Of a stretch of DNA of 64,000 bases, positions 14,679-51,104 are shown in pieces. The notes under the pieces were generated by a model. That model saw only the letters and a program-made list of their open reading frames with translations, was not told the DNA's origin and made no database searches. The DNA comes from an uncultured Dehalococcoidia bacterium (lineage in GTDB: Bacteria; Chloroflexota; Dehalococcoidia; Lucifugimonadales; UBA1123): NCBI GenBank assembly GCA_951812505.1, contig CATOSI010000001.1:558001-622000 (forward strand), written 5' to 3'. Made by a program: the position numbers and the translations under genes. The first letter of the stretch is position 1. Each line of letters starts with the position of its first letter.

Positions 14679-16874
14679 CTAGTTGGAGAACCAGAACTGT
14701 TCCGGGAATCCTGTGGACGGCGTTCGGTATATCCATGCGTTGGCCGCTACGTCGGGGACGTTCTTCAGCCTGTCGCTGGTGATAATCACGCCCTGGTTGG
14801 AAGGACTGAGGCCCGTAACGCCAATTATCCATAGCTGTTCCAGCTGTATCCTGGCGATTTCTTTCCCTAGTTCTATGCGCTCGGCCAGCGGCATCTGCGC
14901 GGTCTGGGCCCGCATTTCGGTCAATTGACTGACGATTTCGGGTGGCTCAATACCCTGCTCTCCATTCGTGTTGTACCAGAGCAGGCTCTGAGGGAACGGA
15001 CCGCCCATCCAGTCAGCCGGTGGGCTGAGAGCCGGGTCCCCGAGACCATAACCCCAGATGTACACCAGGTGTTCGCCCGCTTCTCGGCGTTCCGAAAGCA
15101 GCGTCCTCGTTATCTCGTTGACCTTGGACTTGATTCCCACGTCTTCCCAGTCAGCCGCGATAAGCTCTATCGTATCGGTGTCGCGGCCCTCGCCCGGGGT
15201 GGTATCTAGGATGATGTGCATACGCTCGCCATTATCCATCAGACGGAAGCCATCGGCGTCCTTGTTGGGCATTATGGCGTCCAGAAGCTCATTCGCCTTG
15301 TCTGGGTCGTACTCCGTCCACATGAAGGCGTACTCGTCGCCCGGGTAGTGAGGCTCGGAAGGAGCCGGAGCGGGCTGTCTAGGCGTTCCCTGACCGAGGT
15401 AGCTGATCTCGTTGATTTCGTTGCGATCAATCGCGTGGGAGAGCGCTATCCTGAAGTTTTTATCCTGGAAGTATTTGACTTCAGGTCCCTCCCACTGCTG
15501 GTTGAATTGAATGCCTATTTCGGCCCCGGTGTTGGCGGGCCAGATAGTCATGTGGTATCCGCCTGTCTCCTCGTTCTGCTTGAGAAGAGGGAACATCGAA
15601 AGGTTCACGTGGCGGCCTTGGAAGTCAATCTCACCTGCGATAGCCTTCAGCTGGAGGATGTCGTTGTCCTGGACGAGCGTATATTGCAGCCTGTCAACGT
15701 AGGGGAGCTGATTGCCTTCCTGGTCAACAGCGTAGAAGTACGGGTTCCTAACCGCGGTGAACACCTGCGACGAGCCGTACTTGCTGCCCGCGGTGGGAAT
15801 CCAGGGCTTCATCAGCGGCCTCTCAGGGTTCACCCTCAGGTCGAACATCGCGAGGTAGTACGCCTGCCAGGACTCGTGGCCCGCGTCCTTAGCCTCCTGC
15901 TCTACATTCGGGTTGTACTTGAGGTGGAACTGCTTCATGTAGTTGGACGGTGCGTAGGGTACATTGCAGCACCCGTTGAACTGGTCCATCTGCGCAATGG
16001 TCTCAGGGAACACCCAGAATGGGTCTTTGAAGCTGAACTGGACAGTGTAGTCGTCCACCTTCGTGACCGTTCCCAGTCCGCCCGGCGTCTTCAGCCTGTT
16101 CGGCTTGACTGGGGCAAGATCGTCATCCAGGATAACGTCTTCATAATGGAACACGAAATCATCCGCGGTGAACGGGTCGCCGTTCGACCAGCGCGTACCT
16201 TCACGCAACTTGAATGTCCACGTCTTGCCTCCGTCCGAAGCCTCCCACGACTTGGCGAGGGCGGGAACCAGGGCGCTCGCGTCCTGAGACCAGCGTACTA
16301 GCCGCTCACTAGAGATCCTGCCGTAGTTCCATACGTCGGCCGGTCCGAAATACACTCTGCGGATCGTTCCGCCGTATGTCCCAATGGAGGCTGCCGGTAT
16401 CACCATAGGCTCCGATGGTATGCGTTCGTCTATCGGAGGAAGCTGCCCAGCCGACACCAGTTGCGCCATCAACGGAGCCTCGTTGAAGGTCTTGGGAGCG
16501 GGTATCTCTTTGATTACCTCGATCTCCTTGATTACCTCGACCTCTTTGATTACCTCTTTCTCCACCACCACCGTCTCGCCAGGCACCTGGACCTCCTTGA
16601 CCACCTCTTTCTCCACCACCACCGTCTCGCCAGGCACCTGGACCTCCTTGACCACCTCTTTCTCCACCACCACCGTCTCGCCAGGCACCTGGACCTCCTT
16701 GACCACCTCTTTCTCCACCACCACCGTCTCGCCAGGCACCTGGACCTCCTTGATGACCTCTCTCACGACCTCTTGGATGATTGGAGTAGGAGTAGCGCCG
16801 CTGTCGCCTGTTGCGCAGCCCACCGCCATCGCTACCACACTGACAAGTAATGCTGACCAAATCAGTCTCTTCAT
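14679..16874 (-). CDS. Peptide ABC transporter substrate-binding lipoprotein (DppA/OppA, SBP family 5)
   Basis: I start at the ATG at 16874 because AGGAGGG lies 5 bases before it and the protein then opens with a lipoprotein signal, MKRLIWSALLV..AVGCAT. The ORF-track start adds 22 unrelated residues. The protein is 731 aa. After the lipidated Cys comes a stalk with four 17-residue repeats (VQVPGETVVVEKEVVKE) encoded by 51-bp DNA repeats. The family-5 domain follows, with YGRISSERLVRW, SWEASDGGKTWTFKLREG and SNGDPFTADDFVFHYED. It binds peptides or other solutes outside the membrane and delivers them to the DppBC permeases. Confidence 0.9.
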   Translation of the reverse strand: MKRLIWSALLVSVVAMAVGCATGDSGATPTPIIQEVVREVIKEVQVPGETVVVEKEVVKEVQVPGETVVVEKEVVKEVQVPGETVVVEKEVVKEVQVPGETVVVEKEVIKEVEVIKEIEVIKEIPAPKTFNEAPLMAQLVSAGQLPPIDERIPSEPMVIPAASIGTYGGTIRRVYFGPADVWNYGRISSERLVRWSQDASALVPALAKSWEASDGGKTWTFKLREGTRWSNGDPFTADDFVFHYEDVILDDDLAPVKPNRLKTPGGLGTVTKVDDYTVQFSFKDPFWVFPETIAQMDQFNGCCNVPYAPSNYMKQFHLKYNPNVEQEAKDAGHESWQAYYLAMFDLRVNPERPLMKPWIPTAGSKYGSSQVFTAVRNPYFYAVDQEGNQLPYVDRLQYTLVQDNDILQLKAIAGEIDFQGRHVNLSMFPLLKQNEETGGYHMTIWPANTGAEIGIQFNQQWEGPEVKYFQDKNFRIALSHAIDRNEINEISYLGQGTPRQPAPAPSEPHYPGDEYAFMWTEYDPDKANELLDAIMPNKDADGFRLMDNGERMHIILDTTPGEGRDTDTIELIAADWEDVGIKSKVNEITRTLLSERREAGEHLVYIWGYGLGDPALSPPADWMGGPFPQSLLWYNTNGEQGIEPPEIVSQLTEMRAQTAQMPLAERIELGKEIARIQLEQLWIIGVTGLSPSNQGVIITSDRLKNVPDVAANAWIYRTPSTGFPEQFWFSN
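16553..16756. repeat. Four tandem 51-bp repeats inside the lipoprotein gene
   Basis: CCAGGCACC recurs at 16579, 16630, 16681 and 16732, exactly 51 bp apart, with nearly identical units between. In frame they encode the charged 17-aa stalk repeat that lifts the binding domain off the membrane. Confidence 0.9.
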
Positions 16875-19626: not shown

Positions 19627-19745
19627 GTGTGCTGCTACTTGGGCGGGGTCTTTGCAAAGTCGTCCGCGCTTCCATTTCCACTACACATCCATTCCGCCAA
19701 TGCGCTACAATACATCCATGAAGAACAAAGTTTCTGGCACTGGAT

Positions 19746-19880
19746 ACATAAATAAAAATTTATGTTTTCGAAAATCGAAGCCTCGGCGATTTCAAAACAC
19801 GCGAACGCAGGGCGACGCAGGGCAAACTCAGGGCAAAATCGCCCCCTGTACATGCCTGTGACTCGCCTGTTCCTGCCCTG
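19746..19880. repeat. Phased hexamer array, locus B (CAGGGC / GCCCTG)
   Basis: The gap between tRNA-Ala and the SDR (19578-19979) has no gene. It starts with CATAAAT-AAAA-ATTTATG, a perfect AT palindrome, then a hairpin AAATCG/CGATTT. CAGGGC follows at 19808, 19818 and 19829 (10 and 11 bp apart), then the inverted form with CCTG at 19845, 19855, 19866 and 19877 (10, 11, 11 bp). The layout matches loci C and D with a different hexamer. Confidence 0.75.
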
Positions 19881-19979
19881 TACAATTATAAACCAGAATA
19901 TATGAACCTCCGGATCCGCTAACTCGCCGGAACATATCTGACTCAACTCTGAAAAAGCCCTGGCATAACGGAGATTCCA

Positions 19980-32290: not shown

Positions 32291-33085
32291 TCATCCTCCG
32301 GGAGCAAGCACGCCTTCCACACTCGCCGATTCCACCCAGCCTTCGACTCCAGTGTCGAAAATGCCGATCTTCGACCACCTGCCTCTTCTGTCGATGAGTC
32401 TGACTTCGCTACCGGCGTCCAAGCTGAATCTGGGATCGAGGCTCTCCCTGGGACCGTGGTACACTCCCGCTGATTCGGCGGTTACCACAGCAATCCGCTC
32501 CCAGTGGAGCCGGTCCATGTGCTTGCCAATCGTAATCGAGCCGAAAATGAAAATGCACAGCACGGCCACTGCGGCAAGCCGACTCACTGTCATGGATGTT
32601 CGGAAGCGGCCTCCCCAGATATAAAGCGCAGCCAACACTCCCGCTACCAGCCATGAGACAAGAGTGGCAATCGCGGCCTGATTGAATGTTACCCAGGGGA
32701 CAAACTCCGAGAGTTGGACGAACACAGGGGTTGCCGACTCACGCGAATTGGGACTGTCAAGCTGCTGTCGCACAAATTCCAGATTCGCCGCAATATCCTC
32801 ATCGAATGGGGCGAACCTCTTCGCCCGAAGATAGTTGAGAATGGCGCGTCCCAAGTCGTCCGACTTGTAGTAGGAGTTAGCCAGATTATAGAAGAGCGTC
32901 GGGTCCTCATACCCGAGGCTGACCAGGTGTTGATACGTTCGCGCCGCTTCTTCGTAATTGCCGTCTTCATAAAATGCTCCGGCAGTTGCGAAGATTTTCA
33001 TGTCCGTCAACTCGTCGCCGTAGCTTACGCTTGAAATGGCGAATATGGCCACAAAGGCGACGACAACTGAGATCAGGATTTTCAT
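32291..33085 (-). CDS. batE: BatE-like TPR/SH3 protein
   Basis: A 264-aa exported or membrane-anchored protein. It has an N-terminal signal or TM helix, TPR-like helices (AGAFYEDGNYEEAARTYQHL, NLANSYYKSDDLGRAI), two TM helices near residues 135-185, and a C-terminal SH3-like domain ending in GVEGWVESASVEGV. This matches BatE of the Bacteroides aerotolerance operon. The start overlaps the BatD stop by 4 bases. It is the last gene of the moxR-bat operon. Confidence 0.8.
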   Translation of the reverse strand: MKILISVVVAFVAIFAISSVSYGDELTDMKIFATAGAFYEDGNYEEAARTYQHLVSLGYEDPTLFYNLANSYYKSDDLGRAILNYLRAKRFAPFDEDIAANLEFVRQQLDSPNSRESATPVFVQLSEFVPWVTFNQAAIATLVSWLVAGVLAALYIWGGRFRTSMTVSRLAAVAVLCIFIFGSITIGKHMDRLHWERIAVVTAESAGVYHGPRESLDPRFSLDAGSEVRLIDRRGRWSKIGIFDTGVEGWVESASVEGVLAPGG

Positions 33086-34881
33086 GTCTGAATCTCCCTC
33101 TCCACCCTACGGACTATTTCAGCCACAGCCTTCGAGGCGCTGCCTTGGTCAGCTAGCCATTGCGGCGCGAATCGTGATTGATCAAGCTCTCGGAGCACTC
33201 CCATAAGTTGCTGAATTGTGTCGTCCTTAACTCCAAGCTCACGCAGTGGAGTTTCAAGTTCTGTGATTGGGAGAGAGGAAGATGATCGTCCCAGAATCAC
33301 GCTCAGGTATCCGTGCAGGGCTGCGGTAGCGACATCCGCGCCGGATGAGGAGGTGTCAAGGTCGGACATCCTTGCAAGAGCTTGCTGCCGCGCTCGAATA
33401 GGTGCGTTAGCAAGTATCGCGGTCTCACGCCTTGCGACTGCCCAGCGCCACACAAATGATGCCAATAGCACGGCAAACGGCAATGCTCCCAGTCCCCAGA
33501 TCATCGGATTGACTTGAGTAGGATCAGAGGGAGCACCGATGCCGCGCGGCGCAGGCTTGATGTGCCTGATGTCTGTAACCGCCAGTGTACCATCCTCGTT
33601 CACTATGGGTTCTGGCATTGGAACCGCATTCGGGTCAGGGGCCACGTGGACTGAAATGCTCTGGGTTGATGCGGTAACATATTCCCCCAGAACAGGATCG
33701 AAATAAGAGTATTCGATTGGGGGCAGGTCGAAGTTACCAGCCGAGTCAGGAACGAGGACTCTTTGGAAAGTCTTTGTGCCGTTTATAACCCCATCCTGTA
33801 CGAATGAGCGATGGACGGAGTCGTTCTCGAACGCGCGCCATCCGGGTATGTCCTGCCAGACGGGATCGGGAAGTGTGTCGAAGTTACCCTGACCGTCGAT
33901 CTTGACAGTCAGCGTCACTGATTCTCCAAGAGTCACCGAAGCTGTATCTAATTCCGCTTCGATGTTGAACTTGCCGACCGCGCCCGTGAAAGAGGCTGGT
34001 TCGTTCGTGGGTAGGGGCTTCACCTGTAGAGCTACAGGCGATGAAGCGTACTCCCTGAATGAGGACGAGAACATACCTCCTGGCACGCCCACCGTACTGG
34101 GTTCTATGGATATGTCTCCCGCGATGGTTGGGAATACTATCGCGCTATATTCGATAACCGCGTATCCGTTTCCTTCAATCACTTCCGGGTATTCGCGCCT
34201 GTCGGTGCGGTCCGGGTTCCAGAAGCCCACGAAGTCGGGTGGACGGTGTATCGGCCTGATAAAGAATGGGTCTGAGGCGTAGAACTTCGAACTGTATGTA
34301 ATCTGCTCGCCGAGATAAGGGGCGTCGTTATCCACCTCGGCCTCGATGAAGTAAGCGCCATCGTTCACCGACGTATCGAACGATGGGTCGCCTTGGTTTA
34401 GCGGAGACTGCGGTCTGAGGAATGAACTCGCTGGCGGGAGCAAGGGAGTGGGTATAGGTGATGGAGTAGGAGGCACCCCCTGTGTGACATTCAGCGTAAT
34501 GGGAGATGTCTCGTAAGTGTCTCCGCCGATGGGTACCTGCACCGGTCCTATCACGATCGTGCCGGTGTGTCTGGGCTGCATTTCGATGATGAACCTGAAT
34601 TCAGCCGTTACCTTCCCCTGATTGTAGGACTGCTGAGAGTTGATCTTTCGTCCGACGATCTGAAGTCCGCTGAGCGTAGGAAAGACCGGCGCGCCGATAT
34701 TGTTCTCGCCGGTCACCGTGACCGTCAAAGTTACTGTGTCGTAGAGCGTGGGATCGGTGCGGTCCACTTCGGCGGTGACGGACGAGGTCTGGGCATTCGC
34801 CGACGGTGGCGCGGCAAATAGCACCACTGCCAACAGCAATGACAGCAGTAGTCCAGTCTTCACTATGTTAGTTGATACCAT
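33082..34881 (-). CDS. batD: BatD-family protein
   Basis: A 599-aa envelope protein. A signal peptide ends near the ANAQT stretch (residues 27-31). Several beta-sandwich (Ig-like) domains follow, with VEVDRTDPTLYDTVTLTVTV-type and VEVDNDAPYLGEQITYSSKFY-type repeats. A single TM helix lies near residue 480, then a basic cytoplasmic helical tail. This is the layout of BatD (oxygen tolerance). It is presumed to bring the VWA proteins BatA/BatB together at the membrane. It is separated from batC by a 363-bp gap holding array C, an unusual break in this operon. Confidence 0.85.
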   Translation of the reverse strand: MVSTNIVKTGLLLSLLLAVVLFAAPPSANAQTSSVTAEVDRTDPTLYDTVTLTVTVTGENNIGAPVFPTLSGLQIVGRKINSQQSYNQGKVTAEFRFIIEMQPRHTGTIVIGPVQVPIGGDTYETSPITLNVTQGVPPTPSPIPTPLLPPASSFLRPQSPLNQGDPSFDTSVNDGAYFIEAEVDNDAPYLGEQITYSSKFYASDPFFIRPIHRPPDFVGFWNPDRTDRREYPEVIEGNGYAVIEYSAIVFPTIAGDISIEPSTVGVPGGMFSSSFREYASSPVALQVKPLPTNEPASFTGAVGKFNIEAELDTASVTLGESVTLTVKIDGQGNFDTLPDPVWQDIPGWRAFENDSVHRSFVQDGVINGTKTFQRVLVPDSAGNFDLPPIEYSYFDPVLGEYVTASTQSISVHVAPDPNAVPMPEPIVNEDGTLAVTDIRHIKPAPRGIGAPSDPTQVNPMIWGLGALPFAVLLASFVWRWAVARRETAILANAPIRARQQALARMSDLDTSSSGADVATAALHGYLSVILGRSSSSLPITELETPLRELGVKDDTIQQLMGVLRELDQSRFAPQWLADQGSASKAVAEIVRRVEREIQT

Positions 34882-34931
34882 ACCGGAGCGACTCCCAGAG
34901 TAACGGCGCGTAAAGCATCGGATTGCTGAGT

Positions 34932-35094
34932 CATATATCTTGATTTATATATCTGCTGGTGGGTCTGCAGGTAGTCTGCTGACGCCCTACAAGAGGGGAA
35001 TGGTACCTGTATTCACCTGCATTTCACATGTATTAGCTTTGGAGCGGTTTTTCACGCTCCCTCTGTTTTCCAATTTATAATTTCGAATTTATGT
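34932..35094. repeat. Phased hexamer array, locus C, inside the bat operon
   Basis: The gap 34882-35244 holds no gene. CATATATCTTGATTTATATA opens it, then CTGCTGGT, CTGCAGGT and CTGCTGAC at 34953, 34965 and 34976 (12 and 11 bp apart). After about 20 bases come ACCTGT, ACCTGC and ACATGT at 35005, 35015 and 35026 (10 and 11 bp). A GGAGCG/CGCTCC hairpin follows. The region ends with TTTATAATTTCGAATTTATG, the reverse form of the AT motif of locus D. Confidence 0.75.
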
Positions 35095-35244
35095 ATGTTG
35101 AGGCTCTGAGCCTCGTCGGTCGGCGCCCAGTCATTAGTTTGTATGTTCGTATTATAGTGGAATTGGGATGTGGATGTGTAGTCCTGTGGGAAACTGGGAA
35201 GACATCTGCACCCCGTACTTTCCAGAATTCTGTTCATCTGCCGC

Positions 35245-36057
35245 CTACCATTGCTGTTCGGGTGGCGATCCCTGAAAGTGGAGTATTCTGCTTCTTAAAG
35301 TGTCGGTGTTGTCAGCCATAGATTCCAGCAATTGTTCGGCCTGTTCCTCTGTCATGCCGGTTGGGGGGACCTCTCCCGGACTGGACTGCGACTCTGTCGA
35401 GCTGGACTCTCCTTCTTCCGGCTCGGTCTCTTCGGAGGGTTCTCCGTCTTCTTCGGAACCCTGGTCCTCCTGGTCCGAAGAATCTTCCTGGTCCTCGGGC
35501 TGCTGTTCCTGCTGTTGCTGCTGACCGGGCGTGTTCCCTTCCCCGTCTTCCTGCTCTTGATTGCCTTCTTGTTCCTGTTCCTGCTCTTGATTGCCTTCTT
35601 GTTCCTGTTCCTGCTGCTCTTGTTCTTGCTGTTCTTCGATCCGTAGAAGAGCAAGTTCCAGGTTATGCTTTGCTTCCTGGTCCTTCGGGTCGAGTCTCAA
35701 CGCCTGTTTATATGCCTCGACTGCCGCTTCATAATCCTCGGACATGTACAGAGAGTTTCCGGCATTGAAGGCAGCATACTGAGACAGGCTGGGCTCGGCG
35801 GTCTCCGCGCTTACGTCTAGCTTATAGCGTGCATCGCCGAACTGCTCCTGCTTGTACAGCGTATTGGCGGAATTATAGGTTACTTCCGGACTTTCCGGCA
35901 TTGCCTCCAGGGCGCGGTCATAGGCTTCCTGCGCCTGTTCGTACTGCTCCGCTTCAAATGCCTCGTTACCTTCTCGTATGGAAGCCGGACCTTCGGAGGC
36001 ACACGCCGTTATAAACAATGCGCAGAAAGCGGCTGTGATGAGCGTGAGAGAATTCAT
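35245..36057 (-). CDS. batC: BatC-like TPR lipoprotein with Gln/Glu-rich tail
   Basis: A 270-aa protein. The N-terminus NSLTLITAAFCALFITACASEG is a lipoprotein signal with the lipobox Cys. Three TPR motifs follow (EQYEQAQEAYDRALEAMPES, then NTLYKQEQFGDARYKL- and SEDYEAAVEAYKQALRLDP-type). From about residue 150 the chain is almost only Gln, Glu, Asp, Ser and Gly. The low-complexity tail is usual in BatC. DNA in this part has a 30-bp near-repeat (35552-35611), so length may vary. The start overlaps the BatB stop by 4 bases. Confidence 0.8.
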   Translation of the reverse strand: MNSLTLITAAFCALFITACASEGPASIREGNEAFEAEQYEQAQEAYDRALEAMPESPEVTYNSANTLYKQEQFGDARYKLDVSAETAEPSLSQYAAFNAGNSLYMSEDYEAAVEAYKQALRLDPKDQEAKHNLELALLRIEEQQEQEQQEQEQEGNQEQEQEQEGNQEQEDGEGNTPGQQQQQEQQPEDQEDSSDQEDQGSEEDGEPSEETEPEEGESSSTESQSSPGEVPPTGMTEEQAEQLLESMADNTDTLRSRILHFQGSPPEQQW

Positions 36058-37091
36058 GTTCTGGACTCCCCACTTTCTCCCGTGCGTCTAGGCAGACGTC
36101 GTCTGTCCGGGATCAACTCTCCCGCAATTAGCAGGAGGACGGATGCGAATGCGAATATCTGGAATCGTTCGATTCTGATAGTTTCGACCTCGCTGCCCAC
36201 GGCGGCTTTCTCGAGAGCGTCAAGTTCAGCGGTGAATTCGCTCGCGGCGTTCGTGGAGCCGCTCAACCTGATAAACTTGCCTCCCCCCGCTTCAGCAACG
36301 GATATGAGCGTGTCCTCGTCCAGCCGGGAGAAGACCATGTTTCCGTCCCTGTCCTGAACATACCCGCGCACGCTGCCGAAGGAAGTCCGAATGGGGATTG
36401 GCTCCCCTTCGGGTGTACCTATCCCAACGGGGTATATCAGGACCCCGTCGGCGGCGGCTTCTCGGGCGGCTTCGACCGCGTCCCCGTCCAGATTCTCTCC
36501 GTCAGTGAAAATAATGACAACCTTCTGGCTGAAGAGTTCCTCGTTGAAACTACGACTGGCAATCTCTATCGCCTCACCGATATCCGTGCCTTGAATGGAA
36601 ATCATCTCCGTGTCGGCGGCTTCGATGAAGTTCCTCGCGCTCAGGTAGTCGAATGTCAATGGGAACTGGAGAAACGCGGCCCCTGAGAAAAGTACCAGAC
36701 CTACTTCATCCCCCTGTAGTCTCTGCATCAAATCAACGATCTCCAGTTTTGCCCTAACCAGGCGATTTGGCTTGATGTCTTCAGCGAGCATTGATCTGGA
36801 GACGTCGAGCGCGATGATTATCTGGACGCCCTCACGCTCAACGGTCTGTACGTTTTCTCCCCACTGTGGTCTTGCCAGCGCTACTATTGCCAGCCCAAGC
36901 GCCGAGATTGTCAGAATCCTGCCGATAATCCTGCCCCTGGAGTTCACGTTCGCGGTCAGCATGTTGACCAGTCGTGGATTGCCGATGCGTTCGAGCATCT
37001 GCCTGCGGTTCTGGACCGCCCAGTAAACAACCCCAATCGCAATCGGCACGGCGATCAGCAAGAGTAAATACTGTGGGTTAGCGAATGTCAT
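36054..37091 (-). CDS. batB: BatB-like von Willebrand factor A (VWA) membrane protein
   Basis: A 345-aa protein with two N-terminal TM helices, a VWA domain (about residues 85-270) and a C-terminal TM helix. The metal-ion site is intact: DVSRSM, then FSGAAFLQFPLT and TDGENLDGD. This is the standard BatA/BatB layout, with the VWA domain placed outside the membrane to bind partners through Mg. It overlaps BatC by 4 bases and follows BatA by 10. Confidence 0.85.
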   Translation of the reverse strand: MTFANPQYLLLLIAVPIAIGVVYWAVQNRRQMLERIGNPRLVNMLTANVNSRGRIIGRILTISALGLAIVALARPQWGENVQTVEREGVQIIIALDVSRSMLAEDIKPNRLVRAKLEIVDLMQRLQGDEVGLVLFSGAAFLQFPLTFDYLSARNFIEAADTEMISIQGTDIGEAIEIASRSFNEELFSQKVVIIFTDGENLDGDAVEAAREAAADGVLIYPVGIGTPEGEPIPIRTSFGSVRGYVQDRDGNMVFSRLDEDTLISVAEAGGGKFIRLSGSTNAASEFTAELDALEKAAVGSEVETIRIERFQIFAFASVLLLIAGELIPDRRRLPRRTGESGESRT

Positions 37092-37101
37092 ACTGTCTCA
37101 A

Positions 37102-38106
37102 TTACGGCATTGGTCTGAAGATAGTTCCGCGTGCGACCACTTCCAGCAGCAATAGTAACGCCGCGGGGATGAGCATCCAATGAGCAAGTTCTTCGTGCTT
37201 GGTATATACCGAAACTTCGTATTCGGATTTTTCGAGGCTGTTGATTTCTTCGTATATCTGTCGCAGTCCTTCTGTGTCGGTGGCGAGGTAATATTTGCCT
37301 CCGGTTCTGGCGGCTATGTCCCTGAGCACATCTTCATCGAGGTCGAATCTCTGGATACCCCTCCTGTTTCTTGGCTGAGACCAGGGAGCAATCGAAGCGA
37401 ACTCGGGGGAACCCATACCCACGGTATATACTCTGATGCCCAGAGTCTCGGCGGCTACCGCCGCGGTCATTGGGTCTATCTCGCCGGAGTTGTTCACCCC
37501 GTCCGTCAGTAGGACGACAACCCTGCTCTCCGCCTCGGAGTCCTTGAGGATACTTGCTGCCGTCGCCAGTCCCGTCCCGATGGCGGTCCCGTCTATGATA
37601 CCCAGTTCGGAAGCCAGTTCCACATCCTGCATAAGTACATCGAGCGTGTCGTGATCCACTGTCGGAGGGCTGTGGACGAATGCCTCGCTCGCGAACACTA
37701 CGACACCGATTCGGTCGTACTCCCTCTGCTGAATAAACTCGGAGATCACATCCTTAGCCGCGTCCAGGCGATTGCTTGGATCGAAGTCCAGCGCCGCCAT
37801 CGAGCCCGAAATATCCACTGCCAGAGATATATCCACTCCTTCTCCCTTCACTATCTCGCTCGCCTCGCTTGATTGCGGTCTTGCGGCGGCAATTATCAGG
37901 AGGGCGAGCGCGAGCCATCGGAGCAGCGACAGGAACGGTCGAACTCTCAGTTTCCAGCTGAGTGATTCAGGTCTTGCGGCATCCGCGCTCGTGAACCTCA
38001 AGGAGGCAGGGCGTGAGCGAGATCTTGCATACCAGGGCATCAGCGCGAGCGCGAGAACAACCGGAAGCAGGAAGAGCAGATAAGGCGTGGCGAAGTCGTA
38101 ACTCAT
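37102..38106 (-). CDS. batA: BatA-like von Willebrand factor A (VWA) membrane protein
   Basis: A 334-aa paralogue of BatB: an N-terminal TM helix (YLLFLLPVVLALALMPWY), a second TM near residue 60, a VWA domain with the metal site DISGSM and TDGVNNSGE, and a C-terminal TM helix. The start overlaps the upstream stop by 4 bases. It belongs to the moxR-DUF58-bat operon, which is associated with oxidative stress tolerance and chaperone-like complex assembly. Confidence 0.85.
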   Translation of the reverse strand: MSYDFATPYLLFLLPVVLALALMPWYARSRSRPASLRFTSADAARPESLSWKLRVRPFLSLLRWLALALLIIAAARPQSSEASEIVKGEGVDISLAVDISGSMAALDFDPSNRLDAAKDVISEFIQQREYDRIGVVVFASEAFVHSPPTVDHDTLDVLMQDVELASELGIIDGTAIGTGLATAASILKDSEAESRVVVLLTDGVNNSGEIDPMTAAVAAETLGIRVYTVGMGSPEFASIAPWSQPRNRRGIQRFDLDEDVLRDIAARTGGKYYLATDTEGLRQIYEEINSLEKSEYEVSVYTKHEELAHWMLIPAALLLLLEVVARGTIFRPMP

Positions 38107-39152
38107 GCAGGCTCCGCTCCAACAGCGACAGGTTCCTGTCCAGGAGTGGAAACGGCCCCTGTCGCCCGAATGAAATCCTTGGATCGTTCGATGACTCTAT
38201 GAGCGTCGTCTGCATCCGGCAGGAACCGCGCGAATTTCACGAGGTCGCACTCTTCTAGTATTTGCCGGAGAGCGTTGCGTTCCAAATCCACAATATCCGA
38301 AGATTCGATACCCCGCACAGTCTGACGAGTTGTCAGTTCAGGAGCGGGGACGCTGAACTGTCCCCACAAGTAATTCCTGAGGCAGTCTGACACGAGTGTA
38401 TAGTGTTCCTTGAAGTCGGCGTCCGTCTCCAAGGGTAGGGCCGCGATTCTATCCAGTTCGGCAATTGCGGTCTCCGCAGGTGTGCTGAGGTCAGGATAGA
38501 CGGGGGCTCTCATCAAACCCCATAGGTACACCGCCAGCGCTGCAAGAGCCACGCCGCCCAAAACTGCCAGCATCGCCAGTCCTTCGCGGTCTCTGAGGGC
38601 CGACAGCGGATCAAGTGGGACCGGAAGCTCTGCCTGTGGTTTTATATCCTTCAACTCACTTTCGTCACCTTCAGGGAGAAATCTTGCCACCACGACATCA
38701 ATGGGCTTCACAGGCCTGTTTACGATTTCGCCGTCCGGCTTGCGGATCGCAACACTGAGTTCTGGCGTTGGAATGTCTCCAGTGGAAAAGAGTACAGCTT
38801 CTATTTGAATGGACGACGTGTTCGTACCGTCCTCATTCTGAGTGGTTGGCTGTGAACTCTGACTCCTGACTTCGAAATCGTCGCCCCACCGGGACGGTAC
38901 CTGGGGGAAGATTACAAAGTGGTCGGGTGGGTAGGTTGCGGACAGCGTGATAATGAACGGGTCGCCAATATAGATGTCTTCAGACTCCGCCTTGTCCACT
39001 TTCTCAACTGTCATGTTCAATTCGACCGGGGCGCTCTGCGCGGAAATAGGAAGCGCGCTGTGCACTCCCAGCGCAATCCAGAATGCAACTGTGAATGCCA
39101 AGGTCGAAATTAGACCGAGAAGCGGGGCGGTGGTAGCGGCGCGTACATTCAT
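38103..39152 (-). CDS. DUF4381/BatD-N-like membrane protein of the bat operon
   Basis: A 349-aa protein. It has a signal/TM helix (LISTLAFTVAFWIALGVHSAL), a periplasmic beta-rich domain (about residues 45-160, ELNMTVEKVDKAESEDIYIG), one TM helix near 195-215, and a helical cytoplasmic domain. The last contains HYTLVSDCLRNYLWGQF and ECDLVKFARFLPD, typical of DUF4381-like proteins found between DUF58 and BatA. Function is unknown; a scaffold between MoxR and the VWA proteins is the usual proposal. It overlaps both neighbours by 4 bases. Confidence 0.75.
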   Translation of the reverse strand: MNVRAATTAPLLGLISTLAFTVAFWIALGVHSALPISAQSAPVELNMTVEKVDKAESEDIYIGDPFIITLSATYPPDHFVIFPQVPSRWGDDFEVRSQSSQPTTQNEDGTNTSSIQIEAVLFSTGDIPTPELSVAIRKPDGEIVNRPVKPIDVVVARFLPEGDESELKDIKPQAELPVPLDPLSALRDREGLAMLAVLGGVALAALAVYLWGLMRAPVYPDLSTPAETAIAELDRIAALPLETDADFKEHYTLVSDCLRNYLWGQFSVPAPELTTRQTVRGIESSDIVDLERNALRQILEECDLVKFARFLPDADDAHRVIERSKDFIRATGAVSTPGQEPVAVGAEPA

Positions 39153-40045
39153 CGAGAGAGCCTGATGGCGCGTCTGTGAAAGAATTCGTTCAGTCCAGCG
39201 ACGTATGGCTCACCGGTTGTTAAGTCAATCCGGTCAACACCGAGCGAGTTCATCGTCTGAATCTTCTCAAGCTGACGTTCCGCGATGCCGACACCATACG
39301 ACCACCGCCAGTCTTCATTGTCGGTGTCAACCCACACCATCTCGCCGGTCTCGGCGTCTTCGAGCGATATGACGCCAACGGGCGGGATCTCGTACTCCAC
39401 AGGGTCGTGCAGGTCGAGCGCAATCAGGTCGTGACGGCGAGCGGTGGCCGACAGCGCGAGCCTGTAGGATTCGGGCGGCGCGATGAAGTCGGAAATTAGG
39501 AAGATGATGCTGCGCTGCTTGAGCAGAAGACTCGCAGTGTTAAGCGCGAGATTTATGTCTGTGCCCGTATTTTCGGGTTCGAAGACAAGCAGGTCGCGCA
39601 CCATTCTGAGAATGTGCCTTCTGCCTTTCTTTGGCGGTACCAGCAATTCCGTCTTATCGGTAAATATCGTAAGGCCGACGCGGTCGCTGTTGGCGGTGGC
39701 CGCGAAGGAAAGAACGGCCGCGAGCTCGGCCGCGAGTTCTCTTTTGAACTGTCCGACGGTGCCGAAGTCCGAAGAACCGCTCGCGTCCACAAGAAGCATG
39801 ACCGTTAGCTCGCGCTCCTCCTGGTACCTGCGGATGTATGGAGAGGCCATTCGCGCGGTTACGTTCCAGTCAATTCGCCTCACGTCGTCGCCCGGGGAGT
39901 AGGGGCGAACCTCATCAAATTCCATCCCGCGCCCTTTGAATACCGACTGATATTCTCCGGCAAAGACGTCGGTCGCCAGGTGGCGGGCGGTAATTTCAAT
40001 CCGGTTGATTTGTTGAATCAGCTCCTGGTCCAGCAAGGCGGGCAT
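39149..40045 (-). CDS. DUF58 domain protein
   Basis: A 298-aa cytoplasmic protein with the DUF58 signature YSPGDDVRRIDWNVTAR and a degenerate VWA fold (LLVDASGSSDFG). It has no TM helix. DUF58 proteins are encoded next to MoxR ATPases and are thought to be their adaptor or substrate. It starts 6 bases after the MoxR stop and overlaps the DUF4381-like gene by 4 bases. Confidence 0.9.
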   Translation of the reverse strand: MPALLDQELIQQINRIEITARHLATDVFAGEYQSVFKGRGMEFDEVRPYSPGDDVRRIDWNVTARMASPYIRRYQEERELTVMLLVDASGSSDFGTVGQFKRELAAELAAVLSFAATANSDRVGLTIFTDKTELLVPPKKGRRHILRMVRDLLVFEPENTGTDINLALNTASLLLKQRSIIFLISDFIAPPESYRLALSATARRHDLIALDLHDPVEYEIPPVGVISLEDAETGEMVWVDTDNEDWRWSYGVGIAERQLEKIQTMNSLGVDRIDLTTGEPYVAGLNEFFHRRAIRLSR

Positions 40046-40051
40046 CCTCGG

Positions 40052-41044
40052 TCAAGGAACTTCGACGTGTTCGAGAATAGTAGAAACGATCTGGGAAGAC
40101 GAGATTGCTTCAGCCTCGGCTTCGTATGTAGGTATGATTCGGTGTCTCAGCACATCCTGGGCGATGGCCTTTACGTCCTCTGGGGAGACATACCCGCGTC
40201 CCTGGATGAATGCATTGGCGCGGGCTGCGGTTACCATGTAGATGCTGGCGCGCGGAGACGCGCCGTATGATATAAGGGAACTCAGGCTGGACAGTCCGTT
40301 GTCCTGGGGATAGCGTGTCGCCATCACCAGATCCAGAATGTAGTCCTTCACCTGGTCGTCAACATATATGTCGCGGACAGTTTTTCTCGCGTTGAGGATA
40401 TCCTCGGGAGAAACGACAGGGGCGATCTCCAGCAGGTCGTCTCCGGTCATCCTGTCAATGATCGCTTTTTCCTCGTCTCTATCCGGGTACTCGACGATGA
40501 CCTTGAGCATGAATCGGTCGACCTGGGCCTCGGGAAGCGGATATGTCCCTTCCTGTTCGATGGGATTCTGCGTGGCGAGGACGAGAAACAGCTCTTCCAT
40601 TTGGTAGGTGGTGTCGCCAATAGTTACCTGGCGTTCCTGCATCGCCTCCAGAAGGGCGCTCTGCACTTTGGCGGGGGCGCGATTAACTTCGTCGGCGAGA
40701 ACCAGGTTGGCGAAGATGGGCCCCTGGTGGACGCTGAACTCGGAGGTTCGCGGGTTGTAAATCTGCGTGCCGATCAGGTCGGCGGGGAGTAAGTCGGGCG
40801 TGAACTGGAGCCTTGAAAAATCTGCGTCTATTGCTCGCGATACTGTGTTCACCAGTAGCGTCTTGGCAAGGCCGGGCACTCCTTCGAGAAGGATGTGTCC
40901 ATCCGCCAGAAGTCCTATCAGGACTCTCTCGACCAGGGCATCCTGTCCGACAATCACTTTGCGTATTTCGTCAAGAAGACGGTTCAGAAACACGGACTCC
41001 TGTTGCACGTGTTCGTTCAATTCCTGAATGCTGTTCAGGTTCAT
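40052..41044 (-). CDS. moxR: MoxR-family AAA+ ATPase
   Basis: A 330-aa AAA+ protein. It has Walker A GVPGLAKT, Walker B LVLADEVNRAPAKVQSALLEAM, sensor 1 VLATQNPIEQEGTYPLPEAQ, an arginine-finger region VDRFMLKV, and the C-terminal lid. MoxR proteins are chaperone-like remodellers that mature metal-centred or secreted complexes with DUF58 and VWA partners. It is the first gene of an eight-gene minus-strand operon. The 370-bp gap upstream (41045-41414) holds a MITE and no gene. Confidence 0.9.
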   Translation of the reverse strand: MNLNSIQELNEHVQQESVFLNRLLDEIRKVIVGQDALVERVLIGLLADGHILLEGVPGLAKTLLVNTVSRAIDADFSRLQFTPDLLPADLIGTQIYNPRTSEFSVHQGPIFANLVLADEVNRAPAKVQSALLEAMQERQVTIGDTTYQMEELFLVLATQNPIEQEGTYPLPEAQVDRFMLKVIVEYPDRDEEKAIIDRMTGDDLLEIAPVVSPEDILNARKTVRDIYVDDQVKDYILDLVMATRYPQDNGLSSLSSLISYGASPRASIYMVTAARANAFIQGRGYVSPEDVKAIAQDVLRHRIIPTYEAEAEAISSSQIVSTILEHVEVP

Positions 41045-48801: not shown

Positions 48802-48903
48802 TTGGGCGACTCCCGTCTTTAGTTATTAGTGGTCAGTTATTGGTTTTCAGCTACGCTGATGTCCTTATGAGTCGGAGACTTTCGTCGGACGATTCCGGCA
48901 AGT

Positions 48904-48992
48904 CCATAAATTTCGATTTATAATTGCTCTGGTGGGAACAGGTGGCTTAACTGGTGAGGAACAGGTGAAAAGGTCACCTGAGTTTCACCTGA
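48904..48992. repeat. Phased hexamer array, locus D (left part; right part at 49875-49890)
   Basis: CATAAAT-TTCG-ATTTAT opens the locus. CTGGTG, CAGGTG, CTGGTG and CAGGTG follow at 48929, 48939, 48951 and 48962 (10, 12, 11 bp apart). Inverted CACCTG lies at 48975 and 48986, 11 bp apart. With the IS and one TGA removed, GACCTG (49881) falls 10 bp after the last copy. The IS therefore inserted inside the inverted half of the array. Confidence 0.8.
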
Positions 48993-49013
48993 GAGGGTGT
49001 CTGAGAAGTCATT

Positions 49014-49463
49014 TCAGGTAGGATGCGCCAGTCTGCGAAGCATCAGTCTGATCATAGCAGCGTACACGAACGACTCTTCAGTCTCAGGCAAGTATTCATA
49101 GTCCTTAGACAGTCTGCGGTTACGTACCAGCCATGCGAATGTGCGCTCCACAACCCAGCGCCGCGGCAACACTACAAATCCCTTCGGACGAGTTGGAGGC
49201 TCCTGGTCACCTACCACCCATACCCTGCCAGACCAAGTATGTCTCACAACCTCCAAGTCCCAGCCCAGCGTGGTTCTCATCCACTCCTTAAGTCCGCGAT
49301 ATGCGTAGTCCGCCCACACTTTCCTCATCCTCGGAAACCGACTGCTCAGACCGTCCAGCACCATCTTGGATCCCGCGCTATCGCTTATTCCAGCCTCATG
49401 CACCTTCACCTTCAGTACCAACCCTTCAGTATCCACAAGTATATGACGCTTCCTGCCGTTCAC
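49014..49463 (-). CDS. IS5-family transposase, C-terminal ORF
   Basis: This ORF carries [19 protein letters not shown], the second catalytic Asp in [10 protein letters not shown] and the Glu in [23 protein letters not shown]. It lacks the first Asp, which is in the upstream ORF. The listed GTG start is probably not used alone; a -1 shift from the upstream ORF at AAAGGGGGGC restores the family sequence [17 protein letters not shown]. Confidence 0.9.
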
Positions 49464-49840
49464 CTTCTTGCCGCCATCGTAGCTGCGTAAGCCCCCCTTT
49501 CACTCGTCTTCGCCGACTGCGAGTCTATCGCACCCGCGCTCGGTGTGGGCCAACGTCCCTGTGTTACCCTGACTCGCTCGCGCAATGCCTCGTTCATGTC
49601 CTCCCACACACCTACCATTCGCCATGCTCTGAAATAGTGATAGACGGTCTTCCATGGCGGAAGGTCATGTGGGAGCATCCGCCATGGTATCCCACCTCTG
49701 AGAACGTAGAAGATGGCGTTGATGATCTCGCGCATATCTACTGAGCGCGGTCGTCCACCCGCTCTGGCTTTCGGAACCAACGGCTTGAGGATGGCCCATT
49801 CGGTGTCTGTCAGGTCCGTAGGATACGGTTTACGCTTCAT
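49460..49840 (-). CDS. IS5-family transposase, N-terminal ORF
   Basis: A 126-aa ORF starting [17 protein letters not shown], with [20 protein letters not shown] and the first catalytic Asp in [14 protein letters not shown]. In the zero frame it ends soon after the G-run with a non-family tail. A -1 slip on AAAGGGGGGC joins it to the C-terminal ORF and gives a full transposase of about 275 aa. Confidence 0.9.
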
Positions 49841-49967
49841 AATGAGACGATCTTAACACTTCTCAGACACCCTCTGAGATGACCTGAGTTTAGCTACATA
49901 AAAAATTTTCTTTGGTCGGATGATCCACCATGTATAACCTTCTGTTTATGTATTAGACAGCAATTTT

Positions 49968-51104
49968 TCATGCCGATATTGTAGCATGGAACGGGGATGG
50001 GTGTATAGCGTTATGGGAAACTGGACGCGGTTCTGAGTTCGGGTTCTGAGGGTGATTACATCCGAGCGTGGATTGCCGGTCGGATGGGGCGATCTCGAAC
50101 AGAGTGAAGTCGCCTTCGGTTTTGGGCGCGAGGCCGATGTCCTCCATTCGAGTCCGAATGACCCTGTGGGATTCGGGGGCGTCGTCCATGCCGATGAAGC
50201 GGCGACCCAGTTTTGCCGCCTCTACAAGTGTAGTCCCACTTCCGGCGTAGCAGTCGAGTACGGTATCGCCCGGATTCGAGGAGGTGAGTATGACGCGCTC
50301 GATCATGGCGGCGTTCTTCTCGGTGGGATAGAGAGGACGCTGCGGGTCCTTGTATTCCCAGACGTCCTGGGGCATCTTGCCCTTGGTTTGGTCAGCGTAG
50401 TTGATCTTGCGTGGGTTGCCGGTGGCGCTCCAGTGGATGAGGCCGGCGTCGTCAAGTTCTTGTAGTCTTTCAGGTGGGTAGCGCCAGTGACGACCGCGCG
50501 GAGGCCTGACGCCTCGCCAGCGTTGTCCGGTCGGGCCGTCGCGGGTTATGCCTGGGGCGTGCAGGGGGGTCGTGGTGTAGCGGCGACCGTCGGCGTCAAC
50601 GCGTGGATAGAGCCTTTTCAGGTCGTCCTCGCTGAGCGGAGTTCGCTGGGGGTTCCAGGTTATCCGGCTTGGGGAGACGGAGTAGAAGAGGATCGTGTCC
50701 TTGATGTTGCCGTAGGAATACCGATCAAAATTCTTGGGGTTGCTCTTTATACGGGTGATGCTATTGCGAAAGTTTCGAGGGCCGAATACTTTGTCCATGA
50801 GGAAGCGGACGTGGTGTTCCATGTTGATGTCAATGTGGACGTATATCGAGCCGGTGGGAGACATCACCTTGCGAATGGCAAGCAAGCGCAGTCGCAGTGC
50901 GTCGAGATATTCGGAGCCGAGCGTGGTGTCTGAGTAGGCGAGCCTGCCGGACGCGCTGATCGTGTTGGCGCGGTCGGTGTCAACCAGAAACTCGTTATTC
51001 GTCGCAAACGGTGGATCAATGTAAACAAGATCAACGGTTATGCCGCGCTGGGTGAGCAGGCGCAGGCCGGCGAGGTTGTCGGCTGGGTAGAAGAGGTGCT
51101 GCAT
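49968..51104 (-). CDS. Site-specific DNA methyltransferase (beta-type, N4-C or N6-A)
   Basis: A 378-aa methyltransferase. Catalytic motif IV DLVYIDPPFATNNEF lies near residue 30, and the AdoMet motif I VLDCYAGSGTT lies near residue 300, so motif order is that of the beta class (M.MboII/CcrM-like). The target-recognition region is between them (GVRPPRGRHWRYPPERL). DPPF leaves the methylated base open (N6-adenine or N4-cytosine). No restriction endonuclease is adjacent. It starts 3 bases after the DUF2283-like gene on the same strand, so it belongs to the small accessory operon. Confidence 0.85.
   Translation of the reverse strand: MQHLFYPADNLAGLRLLTQRGITVDLVYIDPPFATNNEFLVDTDRANTISASGRLAYSDTTLGSEYLDALRLRLLAIRKVMSPTGSIYVHIDINMEHHVRFLMDKVFGPRNFRNSITRIKSNPKNFDRYSYGNIKDTILFYSVSPSRITWNPQRTPLSEDDLKRLYPRVDADGRRYTTTPLHAPGITRDGPTGQRWRGVRPPRGRHWRYPPERLQELDDAGLIHWSATGNPRKINYADQTKGKMPQDVWEYKDPQRPLYPTEKNAAMIERVILTSSNPGDTVLDCYAGSGTTLVEAAKLGRRFIGMDDAPESHRVIRTRMEDIGLAPKTEGDFTLFEIAPSDRQSTLGCNHPQNPNSEPRPVSHNAIHPSPFHATISA

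Follow-up and report, generated by a model that had tools for sequence, protein, structure and literature searches.

A long gap in the moxR-bat operon

We wondered why batC and batD stand apart in the moxR-bat operon of an uncultured Dehalococcoidia bacterium when the other genes of this operon are tightly packed. The operon lies within a stretch of 64,000 nt (GCA_951812505.1, CATOSI010000001.1, 558,001-622,000), referred to here as the window; the genome it belongs to is termed G000. Pfam matches to BatD, BatA/VWA, DUF58 and MoxR-type AAA_3 back the identity of the operon. By ORF coordinates the batC-batD gap measures exactly 363 bases, whereas the remaining neighbours among the eight genes overlap or lie at most about 10 bp apart, as a preliminary description of this DNA had stated. 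The genes and the element in the gap are:

40052-41044, minus strand: moxR (ORF; MoxR-type AAA_3 among the Pfam results for the operon)
39149-40045, minus strand: DUF58 gene (ORF; DUF58 among these Pfam results)
38103-39152, minus strand: ORF of the operon (ORF coordinates)
37102-38106, minus strand: VWA gene (ORF; BatA/VWA among these Pfam results)
36054-37091, minus strand: VWA gene (ORF; BatA/VWA among these Pfam results)
35245-36057, minus strand: batC, encoding a TPR protein, upstream of the element
34882-35244, minus strand: locus C, a decayed element of subfamily 1 that occupies the batC-batD gap (HMM match of 199 bits)
33082-34881, minus strand: batD, downstream of the element and co-oriented with it (PF13584, E = 5e-35)
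32291-33085, minus strand: batE-like gene, encoding a TPR/SH3 protein

Two tandem repeats were also noted, one at 35548-35636, where batC is rich in Gln/Glu, and one of 51 bp elsewhere in the window, at 16504-16761.

The preliminary description had proposed that the gap holds an inserted element. The spacing in relatives bears this out: batC and batD are adjacent, about 1-35 bp apart, in seven of them (G001, G003-G007 and G016), which include the congeners G001 and G003 as well as more distant genomes, and the sequence in the gap belongs to a dispersed family bounded by terminal inverted repeats (TIRs). The congener G002 has a gap of about 0.55 kb, which is filled by a different element of the same general anatomy. 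Direct comparison revealed no extended similarity between the G000 and G002 gaps. For this reason we do not claim a single inherited insertion, and the gap in G002 was probably hit independently.

The element at locus C

The following parts were assigned at locus C.

35217-35232, minus strand: probable left-TIR remnant CAGAATTCTGGAAAGT (family sequence CAGGGCCTTTTCAAAGT; flank comparison, weak similarity)
35175-35180, minus strand: -35-like box TACACA of the internal promoter (conserved)
35133-35157, minus strand: -10 box together with the nearly invariant initial region CTATAATACGAACATACAAACTAAT (most conserved block of the 42-copy alignment)
35076-35093, minus strand: AT box 1, CATAAATTCGAAATTATA (ACATAAA-N7-TTAT nearly invariant in 42 copies)
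35041-35060, minus strand: GGAGCG...CGCTCC hairpin (varies among copies, without consensus structure)
34953-35031, minus strand: degenerate array of about 11-bp CWGGTG units, forward and then reverse
34932-34951, minus strand: AT box 2, TATATAAATCAAGATATATG (TATAAA-N6-TATATG nearly invariant in the 42-copy alignment)

The GGAGCG/CGCTCC hairpin reported earlier was thus located. An array with AT motifs at both ends had been described as well; the AT boxes are present, but the array is degenerate and can be recognised solely through alignment with other copies. Consistent with this, repeat and tandem-repeat finders run on the gap alone returned no family. Both TIRs have decayed, the left one being barely recognisable and the right one unrecognisable, and no target duplication is visible at this locus. 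The internal promoter upstream of batD and batE looks intact (35151-35180). The earlier statement that the gap is not an ordinary promoter region therefore holds in so far as an inserted element fills it, but has to be qualified, since a sigma70-like promoter (TACACA-18-TATAAT) reads into batD. Transcription of batD and batE may start from this promoter, and the element may alter their expression.

A dispersed family with common anatomy

BLAST placed the gap sequence at 46 related positions in G000, the best besides itself with E = 8e-39, and its resemblance to them is therefore not due to chance. G000, which was examined through searches and individual stretches of sequence and whose assembly is flagged at 8.7% contamination, holds roughly 45 + 25, or about 70, copies. 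Among the 40 genomes searched (G000 and relatives), the family is confined to G000 and its congener G002, and is absent from the congeners G001 and G003. A search for the exact core among 85k species returned the G002 assembly only, records of the own genome possibly having been left out, and viral contigs did not contain it. An HMM built from the copies detected two further copies in the window:

19644-19962, plus strand: second copy, subfamily 2 with CAGGGC units (TIR pair; BLAST 94%)
48901-50026, minus strand: third copy, subfamily 1 (HMM), split by an IS5-family element at about 48994-49873 (NF033580)

The former stops 17 bp short of the next co-directional gene. The IS5-family element sits in the identical array unit of two subfamily-1 copies (window 48994-49873 and L013), at CTCAG/CTGAG, which suggests that this IS finds a target hotspot in the array.

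Three subfamilies, built alike, are told apart by the array hexamer, which is CWGGTG in subfamily 1, CAGGGC in subfamily 2 and CTGGGM in subfamily 3. Subfamily 2, 319 bp long, and subfamily 3, at about 284 bp, retain the geometry. Subfamily 2 has been amplified in G000 (25 matches versus 2) and subfamily 3 in G002 (32 versus 2). In the aligned copies the order toward the downstream gene is TIR, sigma70-like promoter, AT box, AGCTAA, array, AT box and TIR. The internal promoter reads TACACA-18 bp-TATAAT and is followed by the near-invariant RCGAACATACAAACTAAT; its -35/-10 spacer is 18 bp long in 31 of 40 scored copies. A further consensus of the first AT box is CATAA-N8-TTATG, that of the second is TATAAA-N6-TATATG. 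The array comprises seven to eight units of about 11 bp spaced 10-12 bp apart, three forward and then four or five reverse. From its sequence the internal promoter is predicted to be active, and the helically phased array looks like a protein-binding site that a protein may occupy. As the element carries its own promoter, it could rewire the genes beside an insertion.

A class of 123 bp consists of TIRs around the palindrome TTCCCGCGAAGGCGGGAA and nothing else. Elements of about 123 bp spread this palindrome (L097-L100, L102, L109, L202-L212) and are a possible origin of a REP-like repeat.

Ends, target duplications and empty sites

The best copies end in TIRs of 18 bp (CAGGGCnTTTnCAAAGTC) flanked by a 9-bp duplication of the target. 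Allowing at most two mismatches, CAGGGCNTTTNCAAAGTC matched 55 times in G000 and 45 times in G002, with 2 and 0 matches for the reversed control; in congeners the same search gave 1 and 2 matches. Fresh copies are flanked by exact 9-bp duplications: GTGATAGCT (L094), CTGACTTCG (L095), CACGCCTCA (L099) and CTCTTTAGC (L109). Empty orthologous sites were found in G002 at lexA, rplI and the L003 gene, and homology resumes there at the native core promoter. At an alcohol-dehydrogenase-like locus common to G000 and G002 (L011/L024), the flanks are 94-99% identical and the elements only 81%, a contrast compatible with a single base-pair position having been hit repeatedly or converted.

With copies of about 110-440 bp (below the 600 bp used to delimit MITEs) that lack a transposase gene and have TIRs and a target-site duplication, the family has these properties of MITEs; we call it only MITE-like because no transposase with these ends was found.

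Probable insertion in one orientation at a fixed distance from promoters

Genes were called from codon usage in a strand-symmetric manner, and orientation was scored for copies with a called gene downstream. That gene was co-directional for 42/42 copies of subfamily 1, 20/21 of subfamily 2 and 22/26 of subfamily 3, while the gene upstream of copies lay on either strand. Sites between tandem genes held 27 sense and 2 antisense copies (p about 2e-6, a nominal value, as are all p-values here, because some copies share history).

The right flanks also carry a positional signal, scored with an E. coli-like promoter consensus. TTG occurs at offset 18 past the right TIR in 13 of 47 right flanks (mean elsewhere 0.66, about 0.7 expected), and TANNNT at offset 41 in 11 of 47 (mean elsewhere 0.58). 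The two peaks correspond to a -35/-10 pair with 17-bp spacing. Left flanks lack them and show a weaker one at 17 bp (3/40 copies). About half of the copies have no clear promoter at 18 bp and copy A of the window departs from the rule; in addition, no native promoter is obvious in the operon that surrounds locus C. These points count against promoter targeting.

Several 123-bp copies follow the 18-bp rule, and in two cases (L043, L044) the TIR of another MITE ends exactly 18 bp upstream of TACACA inside a subfamily-1 element. As judged from these positions, the TIRs are probably sufficient for targeting, and the nested ends indicate that the internal promoter itself is probably treated as a promoter at which to insert.

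Insertion relative to the relatives, the family with its TIRs and duplications, the orientation bias and the family-wide promoter spacing are thus apparent from sequence comparison. In our view locus C is likely to be a copy, dating from an old insertion, of a MITE-like, non-autonomous element. A transposase acting in trans would recognise the 18-bp TIRs and probably contact promoter-bound RNA polymerase. It would place the element in a single orientation some 18 bp ahead of the -35 box in a sigma70 promoter, duplicating 9 bp of target, and the element would bring its own sigma70-like promoter and phased array, both aimed at the downstream gene.

Might selection rather than targeting have shaped these patterns? 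Transposition into intergenic DNA could be untargeted, with selection purging copies that do not face a gene or that break a promoter. Intergenic promoter-proximal sites are those of least harm, and subfamily 3 does include some antisense cases. Nevertheless, we regard this explanation as unlikely. A peak at 18 bp that is precise to the base pair is hard to obtain via selection alone, as is the almost uniform orientation of the young subfamily 2, whose duplications are perfect, and nested TIR ends lie 18 bp upstream of another element's promoter.

A copy with an HNH-type gene

One copy, L092, is exceptional. Its positions 1008-2405 (G000:C2:1028007-1029404) form a 1398-bp TIR-bounded element, in which a subfamily-3 array region is followed by a foreign-looking 342-aa HNH-type ORF that starts in AT box 2 and ends before the right TIR. 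It is the lone intact-looking TIR pair of more than 1 kb; L013 is long through an IS insertion. A deletion between its two CTTTGCAA sequences would yield the short form, so L092 may represent a parent or a passenger event. That an HNH-endonuclease element of this kind was the parent, and that the short copies are internal deletions via the shared CTTTGCAA, appears doubtful to us. The sequence of L092, the similarity of its product to HNH_3 and zinc-loop domains (below the Pfam cut-offs) and the predicted deletion junction, which would match subfamily-3 ends, speak for such a parent; however, it is a single copy, and HNH homologues occur elsewhere in other settings. No HNH enzyme is known to generate 9-bp duplications, and the gene may therefore be a passenger. 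Such a parent would bear on where the element came from and would not conflict with TIR-directed insertion upstream of promoters. The HNH gene was rejected as a family hallmark, being present in one copy only.

Coding capacity, RNA structure and regulation

That the conserved region encodes a leader peptide or a structured leader RNA is very improbable. Many copies do have an SD-like GGAG and an ATG after the internal promoter, and two subfamily-1 arrays fold better than shuffled sequences do (z -3.3 and -4.7). At locus C, by contrast, the array folds no better than shuffles (z -0.23), RNAalifold found no consensus pair over 42 copies, and Rfam returned nothing in the gap and no credible match to a known family. 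No conserved ORF was detected in the element; candidate frames are inconsistent among copies and vary in length, whereas the ATACATAAA block is fixed at the nucleotide level. A non-mobile regulatory region, in the sense of a large regulon with common promoter and operator array, would suit nearly all-sense copies upstream of genes with a strongly conserved TATAAT core and array, but is highly implausible in view of the TIRs, 9-bp duplications, empty sites, nested copies, patchy occurrence among congeners and unrelated downstream genes.

Returning to the mobile, promoter-directed element, we put forward one more idea tentatively and with low confidence. The family might be a new promoter-seeking group of Dehalococcoidia elements, in which the array with its fixed geometry, three forward units and then four reverse ones at a spacing of 10-12 bp, docks a dedicated protein through the subfamily hexamer, so that every subfamily would place a regulated promoter of its own in front of host genes.

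Comparison with known elements

Few bacterial transposons are known to insert precisely and in one orientation ahead of housekeeping promoters. Those described are TnGBS ICEs, ISLre2 and part of ISKra4, assigned to p-MULT 3/4 with Mutator-superfamily DDE transposases; they enter on the upstream side of a sigmaA promoter, 15-17 bp from its -35 box, turn the right IR toward that promoter and produce duplications of 8-9 bp (PMC3942029). Our family, by analogy, resembles them in insertion: common to both are the orientation and fixed distance upstream of a housekeeping -35 box, TIRs of at least 18 bp with terminal C and 8-9-bp duplications (here CAGGG ends and 9 bp), and the possibility that elements with symmetric ends use both sides. 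Unlike them, the present elements insert at 18 bp and not at 15-17, are non-autonomous and only 0.12-0.4 kb long with no cognate transposase found, have a TIR beginning CAGGG, and contain an internal promoter and phased array. In the uncultured Chloroflexota lineage studied here, spacing of this base-pair precision is seen with non-autonomous elements of very small size, the longer of which carry the promoter and array. If targeting is intrinsic, the ends would suffice to direct insertion, each copy would be a natural promoter-replacement experiment, and the insertion signal could serve as a promoter map of an uncultured genome.

Correia elements lack an array and have TIRs and a duplication that differ from those of the present family. 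In Neisseria they are, like ours, short TIR-bounded elements that lie in front of genes and contain sigma70 promoters (PMC10969869). BrickBuilt of Porphyromonas gingivalis is likewise an intergenic MITE with an internal repeat array and promoters (PMC4596501); its array, in contrast, is a head-to-tail 23-bp minisatellite, and the portion of the published account compared here describes no fixed promoter spacing.

ISAs1 elements generate duplications of 8-10 bp. Their TIRs of 14-22 bp start with CAGGG and are accompanied by a short duplication (PMC11946415), and our family agrees with them in TIR tip, TIR length and duplication. By contrast, no ISAs1 copy with the present TIRs was found, and promoter-directed insertion is not described in the part of the ISAs1 literature compared.

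Candidate transposases

In searches that covered ISAs1, IS256-type and ISKra4 transposases, an autonomous element with matching TIRs and a DDE transposase was not found. An ISKra4 partner was rejected, as the NF033572 model stayed below its cut-off everywhere and gave sub-threshold matches only; an IS256-type partner was rejected since intact copies with readable ends carry other ends. An N-terminal ISH6/ISKra4-like transposase fragment lies at L199 1405-1755, near an IS256-type copy in G000. For ISAs1, only transposase fragments were seen, none beside a matching TIR. Such fragments are present in G000, G001 and G002, where they lie divergently upstream of DUF1800-like genes (L088, L089, L090); several array elements are likewise located upstream of DUF1800-like genes.
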